Below, piece by piece: positions 21,154 to 37,359 of a stretch of DNA of 64,000 nt. The notes beneath the pieces are model-generated. The model saw only the letters and a list, made by a program, of their open reading frames with translations. It was not told the DNA's origin and did no database searches. Each line of letters opens with the position of its first letter. Positions within the stretch are counted from its first letter, which is position 1. The translations under genes and the position numbers were made by a program. This DNA comes from Promethearchaeota archaeon (GTDB taxonomy: Archaea; Asgardarchaeota; Lokiarchaeia; Sigyniarchaeales; SOKP01): the NCBI GenBank assembly GCA_030606485.1, contig JAUWGH010000009.1:1-64000 (forward strand), written 5' to 3'.

Positions 21154-22092
21154 ATGAAAAAAAAATATCCGGCAATTTTGTCTATTTTAATTACTCTATT
21201 TATATTATGGATATATTTTTTCTCAAATTGGGATCAAATTCTTGTTAATTTAATCATTTTAAATGTCATAATTTTTATATTACGTTTTGTTTTTATTCGT
21301 TTAGCAAATTTAGTTTTAAAACGTCGTATTTACATAGTTGTTATTTCAGCTAGTTTTAATATTGTTTGGATCTTCTTCATATTCTGGTTATTGTTTGTAA
21401 TATCTTCTGATCTTGTAGTTTCTCTTGTTTCTTTTTTAGTAGTTGCAATTTCTTTAACTTTAAAAAATATAATTAACAATATTGCATCTGGTGCAATAAT
21501 ATTGGCAACAGAACCATTTGATGTTGGTGATTTAATCGAAACAAGTGAAGTTCAAGGAGCAGTAAATGAAATTTCATTGAATTATACTAAAATTAAGGAG
21601 TTTGATGGTGTAATTACGTATATACCAAATAAAGATGTTTTAAATAAATCTTTAAAAAAATTTACTTATAGAAAATTAAAGCCAATTGAACAATTAATGG
21701 ATGAAGAAACTCAAACTAAGAAGAAAAAATATAAAAAATATTTGAAGAACATTGATAAGTTATTATTGAGGGAAGAAAAGATAACAAAATATACTAAAAC
21801 TGTAGAAATATTATCTAAAATAGATCCAAATAAACTTGAAAATTTATTATCACCAGTTTTTGACAAATATGAAAAAATTTTTGGGATTAGGCCAGAATAT
21901 ATTATTGAAACCACTGGTTTTCGATGTGTTACAACATTTTATTTAATGGCTAAAAGACCCCTGCTAATTTTGCAATACACAGATAATTTTCTGAAAGAAT
22001 GCATTTTTCAATTATATCACGATGATGTTTTTGATGGGTGGGAATCTTATATACAAGATGAACTTAAATTGAAATCTAAAGGGGGGGGCTAA
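21154..22092 (+). CDS. MscS-like mechanosensitive channel protein
   Basis: TM segments then IINNIASGAIILATEPFDVGDLIETSEVQGAVNEISLNYTKI. Confidence 0.78.
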   Translation: MKKKYPAILSILITLFILWIYFFSNWDQILVNLIILNVIIFILRFVFIRLANLVLKRRIYIVVISASFNIVWIFFIFWLLFVISSDLVVSLVSFLVVAISLTLKNIINNIASGAIILATEPFDVGDLIETSEVQGAVNEISLNYTKIKEFDGVITYIPNKDVLNKSLKKFTYRKLKPIEQLMDEETQTKKKKYKKYLKNIDKLLLREEKITKYTKTVEILSKIDPNKLENLLSPVFDKYEKIFGIRPEYIIETTGFRCVTTFYLMAKRPLLILQYTDNFLKECIFQLYHDDVFDGWESYIQDELKLKSKGGG

Positions 22093-22099
22093 ATAATTT

Positions 22100-22999
22100 A
22101 TGGCGATTTTCAATTCTGATTTAGAAGCAATTATTTTTATTATAATTATTACTATTTCATTGATTTTTATTGATAAAGTTATTTCTTTTTTTCTGGATAA
22201 AAGTAAAAAGGTATCTATTCAACAAAAAAATGGAATCTATTTTATTATAAGGACCATTTCGGTAATTATAGTAATTTTCTTTGTTCTAGAAGGATTTCCT
22301 TCATTTGAACTTATTGATCCAACTTATAAGGCAATCCTTACAAGTGTCACAAGTACAGCGATAGCATTTGCATCAAGTGAAATTTTTGCTAATTTTATGG
22401 CTGGATTTGTTTTAATCGCGATCGGACCATTTGATATTGGAGATATTGTAAAAATAGATACTGATAAAGGAATAGTAAGATCTATATCTATGACTAAAGT
22501 TATTCTTGAAACTTTTGACAACATATTTATTGTAAAATCAAATAGTGAAGTTATTTCTTCAAAAATTGTCAATTATACAACTAAATTAAGGAATATTAAA
22601 CGATATGTGGATTTTAAAAAGAAAGTTCAAAGCCCCCAAGATAAGGGAGATATTCGTATAAAAATGAAAACAAATATGGATGAAATAGTTGAAAAAAATA
22701 CTAACTTAATGGCTTTTTTTAGATCATTTTCTAGGAGACAAAATCCAGATTTACATACCTATACATTTAGAATGCATTTTCAATATGAAAAATTTCGAAT
22801 AAAATTAGATAAAGTCGAAGGATTATGTACAAAATATAAAAAAAAATTTGGTTTTAAACCAAGATACAATATCATTGGTTTTAGCTCTCACATCATTATT
22901 AAATTTCGAATATTATCTTTAGATCCAAAAAAGATTCTTGAAAATAAACCTAAATTTACCAACGACCTCTATAAAATCATTTTTAGTCATAATATGTAA
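22100..22999 (+). CDS. MscS-like mechanosensitive channel protein (second copy)
   Basis: IAFASSEIFANFMAGFVLIAIGPFDIGDIVKIDTDKGIVRSISMTKVILETFDN. Confidence 0.78.
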   Translation: MAIFNSDLEAIIFIIIITISLIFIDKVISFFLDKSKKVSIQQKNGIYFIIRTISVIIVIFFVLEGFPSFELIDPTYKAILTSVTSTAIAFASSEIFANFMAGFVLIAIGPFDIGDIVKIDTDKGIVRSISMTKVILETFDNIFIVKSNSEVISSKIVNYTTKLRNIKRYVDFKKKVQSPQDKGDIRIKMKTNMDEIVEKNTNLMAFFRSFSRRQNPDLHTYTFRMHFQYEKFRIKLDKVEGLCTKYKKKFGFKPRYNIIGFSSHIIIKFRILSLDPKKILENKPKFTNDLYKIIFSHNM

Positions 23000-23121: not shown

Positions 23122-25929
23122 ATGAATGCTAAAAAAATTGTAATAACTCCTGAAACTCATTGGGACCGTGAAACTTTATATATTTGAGATATAAAGCACG
23201 ATTGGTATCTTCCTTTTCAGGAATATCGAGCAAGGCTTGTTCAGCTTATGGATCGACTATTAGAAATTTTAAGGAAGGATAAAAATTATTCTAATTTTAC
23301 ATTAGATGGACAAACCATCCCAGTTTTAGATTATTTAGAAGTAAAACCCCAAAAGAGAGAAGAAATAGAAAAATATGTAAAAGAAGGGCGATTATCAATA
23401 GGCCCATTCTTCATTCTACCAGATGAGTTTTTAATTAGTGGAGAATCATTGATAAGAAATTTAATGTTAGGGCATAAAATTGCCAGATCTTTCGGAAGAA
23501 TAATGAAAGCAGGATATATTCCAGACCCATTTGGGCACATTGCACAGCTTCCACAAATTTTAAGCGGTTTTGAATTACCATCCTTTTTATTTATGAGAGG
23601 TTTTGGTAATGAATTTGAAGAAAACAACCTTAATATGGAATTTAATTGGCAAGCTCCGGGTAATGCTGCCTCAATTTTAGCGATACATTTAATAATGGGC
23701 TATGGTTCAATTGCCAATATAAATACAAATATATATAACGGAAAATATAAAAACGCTCTAAGACAAATTAGAAGGCGAGTTAAGAATTTAGAAAAGTATA
23801 TTGCTTCTGATGTAGTTTTATTGAATAATGGTTCAGATCATTTGTATGCACAACCTGAAATCTCTACAATTGTGAGTCAATGGAATGAGGAATATGGTAA
23901 AGATAAAGTTTTAGTCCAACAAGATTTCGAATATTATATTAATGAAGTCTTAAAATTCAATCCTAAATTGAACACATATCAAGGAGAATTGAGATGGGGG
24001 AGATATTTTCATTTATTATCAGGTGTTTTTTCAGCCAGAATGTGGATAAAGCAACAAAATACTGAAATTGAATATTTATATGAAAAATACGCAGAACCAT
24101 TCTCTACAATGGCTTGGGCATTGGATAATACTAGTTCTTTTGAATATCCAAAGGATTATTTATGGACAGGATGGAAATGGTTGATAAAAAATCATCCACA
24201 TGATAGTATTTGTGGGTGTAGTATTGATGAAGTCCATCAAGAAATGAAAACAAGATTTCAATGGGCAGATCAAATTGGAAATGAAATTTTAAAGGACTCC
24301 TTTTTAGAAATTGTTAAACAAGTAAATTTGGACAAAACCAGGGATAAAAAAATTGCTTTATTTGTTCTTAATCCTCTCCCATGGCATCGAAAGGATATTA
24401 CATTTTTTGATTTAATAATTCCTATAAAGGAAAAGTCAGAACAATATCCAGATCCTGTGAGATTAATTGATAATAACGGAAAGGAAATTCCGACACAGAA
24501 CTTTTTGATTGAAGAACAACCAAGATACACAGAAGAACATAATAGTACTTATCGTTTCACATTTTTAGCAGATGTCCCGGCATTAGGGTATAAAGTTTAT
24601 TATTTTATTTTGGGAGAAAGTCCAAAAGACCAAAATAATCAAGGAAATTCACTCTTAAAAGCAGAAAAGAACGCTTTAGAAAACAAATATTATAAAATTA
24701 CAATCAATGAGGATGGAGCATTAGATGTATTAGATAAAGAATGTGGTAAAGAATATAAAAATATATGTATCTTCGAAGATGTTGGAGATTGGGGCGATGA
24801 GTATGATTATTCATGGCCAAAAAGTGGCACAGGAGATAGACGAATATTATCAACTAGTTTTAAAGATTGGAAATATAATCTTGTTGTGAAAGGACCTACC
24901 CAAATAACTGGTAAAATTGAATACACTTTCAATCTTCCCGTATCATTATCTAAAGATCGTTCTGAACGAGCCAAGGAATTAATTAACAATCAATTGTCTC
25001 TCTATATTACTCTTTATGAAGATATAAAGAGAATTGATTTCAAGGTAGAATATAATAATGATAGCAAAGATCATCGATTACGAGTTCTCTTTCCCACAGG
25101 CATTAAGAGTAAGGTAGTTCATGCAGATGGACATTTTTATGTAGTTCCAAGAAATGTGGAGTTACCTAATGATGAAAGATGGGCCCAAAAAGCACTTGGA
25201 ACCAATCATGAAAAAGATTTTGTTGCTGTTAATGATAATAGGACATGTATAGCTGTTTTGAACAAGGGTTTACCTGAATATGAGGCAATACAGAATAAAG
25301 ATGGAATAATAACTCTTGCAATAACATTACTAAGGTGTGTTGAGTGGTTATCAAGGACAGATTTAGCTACTCGTGCATCAAATGCAGGTCCCGATTTAAA
25401 AACACCTGAAGCACAGTGTTTAGGAGACCATACTTTTGAATTTTCACTGGTAATCCAAGAAGGTTTAGGTGATTGGTTAAATTCAAGAATTCACATTTAT
25501 GGTAAAGAATTCAATTGTCCCTTAATTACATTTCTTCCTTCAAGTGTAAATTCAATGTATCATGCATTAAATAAAATCCTTTTCTTAGGAATGACTTTTT
25601 TAAAATTGGAATTACAACATAAATCAAAAAATCTTCCTTTAAGCTTTAGCTTTCTAAAAATTGACAACCCAAATGTGCAATTATCTGCCTTAAAAAAGGC
25701 TGAAAATGGAGATTATTTAATAGTTCGACTTATAAATATATCAAACAATACTGAAAAGGCAAAACTTAGTTTTTATAATAATATTAAAAATATTGAAATT
25801 CTAAATCTTTTAGAAGAGCAACCAACTAATAGAATAAAAGCAACAATTTTTCAAATCGACACAAATCAATTGGAAATTATATTAGAACCCCATGTATTAG
25901 CTAATATTAAGGTAATAATTTCAAAATGA
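23122..25929 (+). CDS. GH38-type alpha-mannosidase, predicted join(23122..23172,23203..25929)
   Basis: ATG 23122 gives MNAKKIVITPETHWDRE, then a 30-nt insert with TGA, then WYLPFQEYRARLVQLMDRLLEI in the same frame; GYIPDPFGHIAQLPQIL and HPHDSICGCSIDEVH downstream. Confidence 0.85.
23173..23202 (+). other. Predicted 30-nt BHB intron in a protein-coding gene
   Basis: CGTG(23167-70)/CACG(23197-200) 4-bp central helix, 3-nt bulges AAA (71-73) and ATT (201-203), 8-bp inner helix CTTTATAT/ATATAAAG, loop ATTTGAG. Excision restores HWDREWYLPF and removes the TGA. Confidence 0.8.
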
Positions 25930-37110: not shown

Positions 37111-37207
37111 GCCTCAGTTGCTTAGCCGGTAGAGCGTTGCCTTGGTATCAAATCCGCAGGTTTAAACAGAAAGGCAAAGGTCGCGGGTCCGATTCCCGCC
37201 TGAGGCT
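37111..37207 (+). tRNA. tRNA-Thr (GGT) with predicted 24-nt intron at 37/38 (37148..37171)
   Basis: GCCTCAG/CTGAGGC acceptor, D arm GCTTAGCCGGTAGAGC, anticodon stem TTGCC/GGCAA with TTGGTA|intron|A, T arm GCGGGTCCGATTCCCGC. Confidence 0.88.
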
Positions 37208-37221
37208 CAATATTCGAGGAA

Positions 37222-37359
37222 GTCGGTGTGGCTAAGCTTGGTTAGTAAAGCGCTAAAAAGCGTTAGCGCCAACAAGCGCCAGACTCATAATCTCTTATAA
37301 AGAATTGGGTCAGAAAATAAGACATCTGGAGATCGCGGGCTCGAATCCCGCCACCGACA
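37222..37359 (+). tRNA. tRNA-Met (CAT; tRNA-Ile2 not excluded) with two predicted introns (about 37253..37278 and 37290..37323)
   Basis: GTCGGTG/CACCGAC acceptor, mature arm CCAGA CTCATAA TCTGG after removing both inserts, T arm GCGGGCTCGAATCCCGC. Confidence 0.82.

Follow-up and report, generated by a model that had tools for sequence, protein, structure and literature searches.

How can a gene for a GH38 alpha-mannosidase specify its enzyme when an insert with a stop codon divides the active-site motif? The gene lies in a stretch of 64,000 nucleotides (the window) of a Lokiarchaeia genome (G000, contig C7, 3.75 Mb). Exon 1, from ATG 23122, reads MNAKKIVITPETHWDRE and is followed at 23173-23202 by a 30-nt insert with an in-frame TGA, after which the same frame resumes from 23203 as WYLPFQEYRARLVQLMD, also given as WYLPFQEYRARL. 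The zinc-site motif of the enzyme is split as HWDRE/W (here and below, a slash marks a point of insertion or cutting), and the joined exons encode HWDREWYLPF. A first-pass annotation had read the insert as a bulge-helix-bulge (BHB) intron that would be removed by a cut between the second and third nucleotides of each bulge. Its description of the sequence proved accurate, both for the insert and the resumed frame and for the pairing it drew (CGTG/CACG, two bulges, an inner helix and a 7-nt loop), and it was right that the outer helix is weak. The features of the locus are as follows.

23122..23172, + strand: exon 1 of the GH38 alpha-mannosidase gene, 17 codons (...PETHWDRE) with a native-type 5' end; from sequence and orthologue comparison.
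23173..23202, + strand: predicted 30-nt BHB intron with in-frame TGA, ACTTTATATATTTGAGATATAAAGCACGAT; lacking in L005 and L006, at the same site in 23 other loci, supported by covariation.
23167..23170, + strand: 5' strand of the central helix, CGTG, exonic (codon CGT and the G of GAA); from codon constraint.
23171..23173, + strand: 5' bulge AAA, predicted cut AA/A (23172/23173); from the geometry common to all sites.
23174..23181, + strand: 5' strand of the inner helix, CTTTATAT; from covariation and fold.
23182..23188, + strand: 7-nt loop ATTTGAG, which holds the TGA stop; from sequence.
23189..23196, + strand: 3' strand of the inner helix, ATATAAAG; from covariation and fold.
23197..23200, + strand: 3' strand of the central helix, CACG, intronic; paired in 19 of 19 aligned introns.
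23201..23203, + strand: 3' bulge ATT, predicted cut AT/T (23202/23203); from the geometry common to all sites.
23203..25929, + strand: exon 2, the remainder of the GH38 alpha-mannosidase; Pfam PF01074, PF09261, PF07748 and PF17677.

The listed open reading frame begins at 23248, as the first-pass annotation had expected of gene callers, and the N-terminus of the PF01074 domain is lost from it: the predicted spliced product (925 aa) matches this profile from position 1 with 122 bits, the unspliced one only from position 53 with 91.5 bits. The HWD motif contains zinc ligands of the GH38 fold, so a protein started at 23248 would be without them. Just upstream of the gene (21154-22999) are two tandem membrane-protein genes resembling small mechanosensitive (MscS-like) channels, a segment that is absent upstream of GH38 in the sister genome L005.

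The structure of this single sequence is not sufficient evidence for an intron. The pairing of CGTG (23167-23170) with CACG (23197-23200), together with the AAA bulge, the 8-bp inner stem and the 7-nt loop, is the minimum-energy fold of the local 54 nt, but the window fold taken alone is not beyond chance (z-scores of -0.70 and -0.85), and each strand of the AT-rich 64 kb has about 100 places that satisfy the BHB geometry alone, most of them chance matches. The outer helix is reduced to a C-G pair beside a mismatch; relaxed BHB motifs are known substrates (PMC12397907). An exon-exon fold rivals the central helix in some carriers, and an alternative exon-exon pairing is also found in the consensus. 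No Rfam intron model matched in the window, and a group I or II intron was rejected, the 30 nt containing no ribozyme core. Given that the single-sequence structure is within chance expectation, the case for an intron rests on comparison with relatives.

This comparison, which the first-pass annotation had proposed as a check, shows that L005 (94% identical) and L006 (92% identical) encode an uninterrupted HWDREWYLPF and have exactly 30 nt fewer. In every full-length orthologue inspected across 82 genomes of the order, the insert is either absent or located between the same two codons. A covariance model recovered the insert in eight of 232 Asgard genomes, in GH38 in every case, and a pattern scan of metagenomes added 16 contigs with an insert at the identical site. 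This pattern by design demanded GACCGTGAA and CAYG flanks and left out the inner stem, except for the bases that define the site. The carriers thus number 24 loci (the window and 23 others) from independent assemblies. A match in a viral contig (L053) was discarded as a chance match within a 3988-aa ORF. Comparison of 106 kb of the window contig with the sister genome G014 yielded no other convincing intron-like indel; one 14-nt indel was discounted since it falls in a repetitive region.

The constraint on the carriers is on RNA pairing. Compensatory changes occur at five of the eight pairs of the inner stem (14 cells), a result matched by none of 500 shuffles, and the 3' strand of the central helix is CACG or CATG and is paired in all 19 distinct 30-nt GH38 introns aligned, although the search pattern required CAYG. 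The exonic strand is constrained at the level of codons: GAC CGT GAA (GACCGTGAA) is used by 8/8 homology-found intron-containing GH38 genes versus 0/40 intronless ones (Fisher 2.7e-9, uncorrected for kinship), the native form of the site being GATAGAGAATGG and the recoded form GACCGTGAATGG. Stem covariation was another check set by the first-pass annotation, and one observation that would have refuted it, a conserved peptide without the stem, is the reverse of what the carriers preserve.

Equivalent introns are predicted in other genes. In CobA/BtuR (PF02572), a BHB intron of 29-31 nt interrupts FGRGK/GKTT in 16 genomes and breaks the frame in nine of them. In a DeoC/LacD-family aldolase (PF01791), seven genomes have a 32-nt intron at GVD/MGRN and two have a 30-nt intron at a second site, VDHG/YFG. 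EF-1alpha has introns of 31-33 nt at GHIDHGK/ST in five genomes and further 30-nt sites (G041, G038; L203, L206) at HLNLV/IIGHID and within APGHADFVKNM. Over the four gene families, inserted copies in Lokiarchaeia total approximately 56; the search for further host genes was not exhaustive, and four is a minimum. At every site in all four families a cut between bulge nucleotides 2 and 3 restores the conserved motif, as had been claimed for GH38 and holds in every carrier there. A given breakpoint would satisfy the BHB criterion by chance with a probability of about 0.006, and stem covariation holds in the CobA and aldolase sets as well. The breakpoints L275 (CobA of G051), L208 (EF-1alpha of G052) and L255 revealed either no BHB or no insertion where one was expected. 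EF-1alpha is a single-copy gene in each interrupted genome, which implies that splicing or an equivalent process must occur unless an intact copy went unassembled.

The GH38 introns are associated with a gene for a LAGLIDADG homing endonuclease. This gene is found upstream at nine of 23 intron-containing and none of 36 intronless GH38 loci (p = 6.5e-5; p = 0.003 among the loci whose flank extends 1.3 kb or more), on the opposite strand and with its start about 100-220 nt before the motif. The copy in L094 is intact and encodes 403 aa (PF14528, 34.9 bits versus a cutoff of 22.5). The gene is also intact in L092 and L097 and is broken by frame changes in L090 (9670-10855) and L100, so that decaying and intact copies coexist. 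Beyond the endonuclease gene, L094, L097 and L123 retain the 5' end of an intronless GH38 gene that stops directly after HWDRE, and L090 has a stub of the same type that is two codons longer. From these stubs we deduce that the element occupies precisely the position of the intron and that the present promoter, exon 1 and intron of the gene came with it. The window copy, like most intron-containing copies, has no linked endonuclease gene, and no stub is visible in the window. Carriers without the endonuclease form two classes, one with an element-like upstream arm (e.g., L088, L093 and L098) and one with a native-type arm (the window, L028, L033 and L039); in the window, the 150 nt upstream of exon 1 are closest to the intronless relatives L005 and L006. 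Carriers of the second class have the structure expected after recombination of a stub with the new exon 1.

The distribution of the introns is similarly consistent with mobility. A quick GH38 tree places no fewer than 11 switches between intron presence and absence on its supported branches. Where the two genes of a sister pair differ in whether they have the intron, their divergence is approximately 3-7% downstream of it and rises abruptly there, to 16-32% in exon 1 and up to approximately 50% further upstream. The introns of L033 and L039 agree at 30 of 30 positions even though the two proteins are only 65% identical and synonymous substitutions between the genes have reached saturation, whereas the introns of close GH38 genes differ, a combination that fits simple vertical descent poorly. 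As expected of a homing element, close relatives have unoccupied sites and the intron has spread horizontally.

The other host genes repeat this arrangement in part. Several CobA, aldolase and EF-1alpha introns have neighboring endonuclease genes; in the CobA loci of G038 and G035 both the endonuclease gene and the stub are retained (CobA gene-end stubs: L142 and L157), and in the aldolase locus L168 the 3' end is duplicated as a stub. The short stretches available for the EF-1alpha sites L203 and L206 have no endonuclease gene alongside. Relatives of the endonuclease are present in 47 of 232 Asgard genomes, several with duplicated gene ends on both flanks. In the window's own genome (L153, G000:C10:872000-879000), a LAGLIDADG endonuclease gene lies between duplicate phosphohexomutase-like 3' ends (...LYFRPSGTGPDVRFYIFGK...), an arrangement also seen in L164 (G012). 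The main phosphohexomutase-like gene at L153 is continuous and intron-free; gene-end replacement can thus work without an intron, which is not an obligatory part of it. Similar helicase-like C-terminal sequences (DRAYRIGQTSNVNVYKFITLGTIEEKI) flank the endonuclease gene at L162 (G019:C95:22000-29000), which suggests that this putative helicase gene is another host of gene-end replacement.

What can be read from the DNA itself comprises the insert, its stem and covariation, the codon constraint, the linked endonuclease genes, the stubs, the patchy spread and the recurrence in other genes. On this basis we consider it very likely that the insert is a BHB pre-mRNA intron derived as the end piece of a mobile homing-endonuclease element, of which the window would hold an endonuclease-less scar. 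For the window the origin from an element is inferred, since the endonuclease is seen at nine relatives only. That the intron is real and the endonuclease a bystander, the intron being old or moved by other means such as homologous recombination or cDNA, is a minor possibility that we cannot dismiss, given that the endonuclease gene is missing at most intron-containing loci and that genes in these genomes are mosaic, such that recombination alone could move introns. It leaves unaccounted for, however, a subfamily of endonucleases (>55% identical) that in the searched Asgard genomes is confined to intron-containing GH38 loci, stubs that terminate at the intron site itself, and the recurrence of gene-end duplication at CobA and aldolase.

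The enzymes that a BHB intron would need are encoded in the window's genome. Two proteins of the EndA family are present: EndA alpha, which is closest to the Aeropyrum endonuclease chains 3p1z and 3ajv, has Tyr, His and Lys at the aligned positions, and EndA beta is a paralogue without the His. These sequences meet the criterion for a hetero-oligomeric EndA, although assembly as a tetramer is only presumed, and such enzymes have been linked to relaxed BHB substrates and to cbf5 pre-mRNA (PMC2738675, PMC12397907). Two EndA genes occur in nearly all genomes of the order; in G026 no match to EndA alpha was found at the search threshold. A gene for RtcB is also present. The window further contains two adjacent intron-containing tRNA genes (37111-37207 and 37222-37359) whose insertions are shown by Rfam, those of the latter lying in the D-arm and the anticodon loop. 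Both genes were missed by ARAGORN at default settings, and neither intron was recovered by BHB scanning and ARAGORN.

In the absence of RNA or enzyme data splicing remains an inference, yet the 30-nt insert of the window is almost certainly cut from the mRNA by the tRNA-splicing enzymes. EndA alpha/beta would cut both 3-nt bulges and RtcB would join the exons, which would restore HWDREWYLPF and an active GH38 enzyme. Translational bypassing, in which the ribosome hops the hairpin and the RNA stays intact, is exemplified by T4 gene 60 and by the byp elements of yeast mitochondria, which are short mobile hairpin inserts. The Lokiarchaeal inserts share with byps the form of short hairpins within coding sequence, but we regard bypassing as very improbable. 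Their pairing includes exon sequence across a 3-nt bulge and locks exon codons, the cuts at bulge positions 2/3 restore the motif at all sites found with exon joins in differing codon phases, inspection by eye reveals no recurrent take-off or landing codon at the junctions, and both EndA and RtcB are encoded.

A pseudogene, frameshift or assembly error would explain why gene callers give a truncated ORF from 23248, but we give this explanation almost no credence. The inserts occur at the same site and with near-identical length in 24 loci of many assemblies, which excludes a single-assembly artefact, another refutation that the first-pass annotation had allowed for. Like inserts interrupt the single-copy EF-1alpha of several genomes, and both exons of intron-containing GH38 genes are under purifying selection (window versus L098, dN 0.037 and dS 0.255). 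Readthrough or recoding of the stop, with a 10-residue peptide kept, can be discarded even though 23 of the 24 GH38 inserts have a length divisible by three, because the L085 insert is 29 nt and frame-breaking, the CobA, aldolase and EF-1alpha genes contain introns that disrupt the frame (29, 31 and 32 nt), and the stop (TGA, TAA or TAG at codon 3, 4, 5 or 6) varies in type and position within an unconserved peptide. An in-frame stop or broken frame is found in 24 of 24 GH38 inserts. Most of the stops are TGA or TAA and fall in the hairpin loop, although their position shifts, and their retention hints at selection against translation of unspliced message.

For the origin of the intron from a homing element we propose the following mechanism, in which RNA splicing, the specificity of DNA cleavage, immunity and the order of events are all inferred. 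An empty allele would be recognized by the endonuclease at its conserved active-site codons and would acquire a copy of the element during repair, placing the LAGLIDADG gene at the conserved codons E/W of GH38. The element would bring a substitute 5' end composed of a promoter, an exon 1 recoded to GAC CGT GAA and the mini-intron, leaving the old 5' end as a dead stub. By dividing the endonuclease's own target the mini-intron may render the occupied allele immune (neither target nor cleavage has been demonstrated), and RNA splicing would keep the host gene functional. Recombination of the stub with the new exon 1 is one way in which the endonuclease gene could later disappear, and an intron scar would remain. 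The first-pass annotation, whose intron reading is supported, had missed the change of the 5' end with intron state, the endonuclease genes and the other host genes.

Lokiarchaeia are relatives of the ancestor of eukaryotes, and approximately 56 copies of these introns are apparently removed by the tRNA-splicing machinery, with homing endonucleases that rebuild the genes they break as the proposed source. We think it likely that they represent an undescribed class of selfish element in Lokiarchaea that combines an endonuclease gene outside the intron, a duplicated gene end and a target-masking, RNA-erasable BHB mini-intron of 29-33 nt, and that would have made coding introns common and essential genes such as EF-1alpha dependent on splicing; there is a fair chance that the combined element merits a class of its own. 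With the introns naturally present in some genomes and absent from others, mRNA splicing in archaea and the gain and loss of introns can be put to the test. For metagenome-assembled genomes we advise caution, because gene callers truncate active-site motifs and can split the phylogenetic marker EF-1alpha. Our literature search, which largely did not extend to subscription papers and preprints, turned up no description of introns in protein-coding genes of Asgard archaea, and novelty is unproven.

Inteins and mobile group I and group II introns also sit in conserved active-site codons, and their insertion destroys the target of the endonuclease. The Lokiarchaeal mini-introns share this choice of site and, by inference, this destruction of the target, but they have neither protein splicing nor a ribozyme, for which 30 nt is too short, and would rely on the tRNA-splicing enzymes of the host. 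Introns in archaeal coding sequence were previously known essentially from cbf5 alone (PMC7714728, PMC2738675). The cbf5 gene of Crenarchaeota contains BHB pre-mRNA introns (PMC2738675), which have in common with the Lokiarchaeal introns an archaeal coding gene as host, a relaxed BHB, a cut at bulge positions 2/3 (predicted for the Lokiarchaeal introns), a linked hetero-oligomeric EndA and patchy gain and loss. The Lokiarchaeal introns are found in another phylum and in other genes, are only 29-33 nt long and occupy several host genes and sites, and they add adjoining LAGLIDADG endonuclease genes, duplicated gene ends and movement between genera. In Haloferax, HVO_1309 has a 46-nt BHB intron that is removed by EndA, cbf5 being called the sole other mRNA case in 2020 (PMC7714728); this intron is in the 5' UTR, unlike the Lokiarchaeal introns, which are in coding sequence. 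BHB introns of archaeal rRNA are associated with LAGLIDADG homing endonucleases (mentioned in PMC6125680), but there the endonuclease is inside the intron of an rRNA gene, whereas the Lokiarchaeal endonuclease is outside the 30-nt intron, behind the rebuilt end of a protein gene. The mORF gene hybrids of fungal mitochondria (Allomyces atp6; Glomus atp6, atp9, cox2 and nad3; PMC3630166) resemble the Lokiarchaeal elements in that an endonuclease element supplies a substitute gene end and the native end remains as a stub, a criterion met by GH38 in L090, L094, L097 and L123, CobA in L142 and L157, and aldolase in L168. The mORFs are mitochondrial, replace 3' ends and have no BHB intron, whereas the Lokiarchaeal elements are chromosomal, replace mostly 5' ends and place at the junction a mini-intron that is predicted to be spliced from the RNA.
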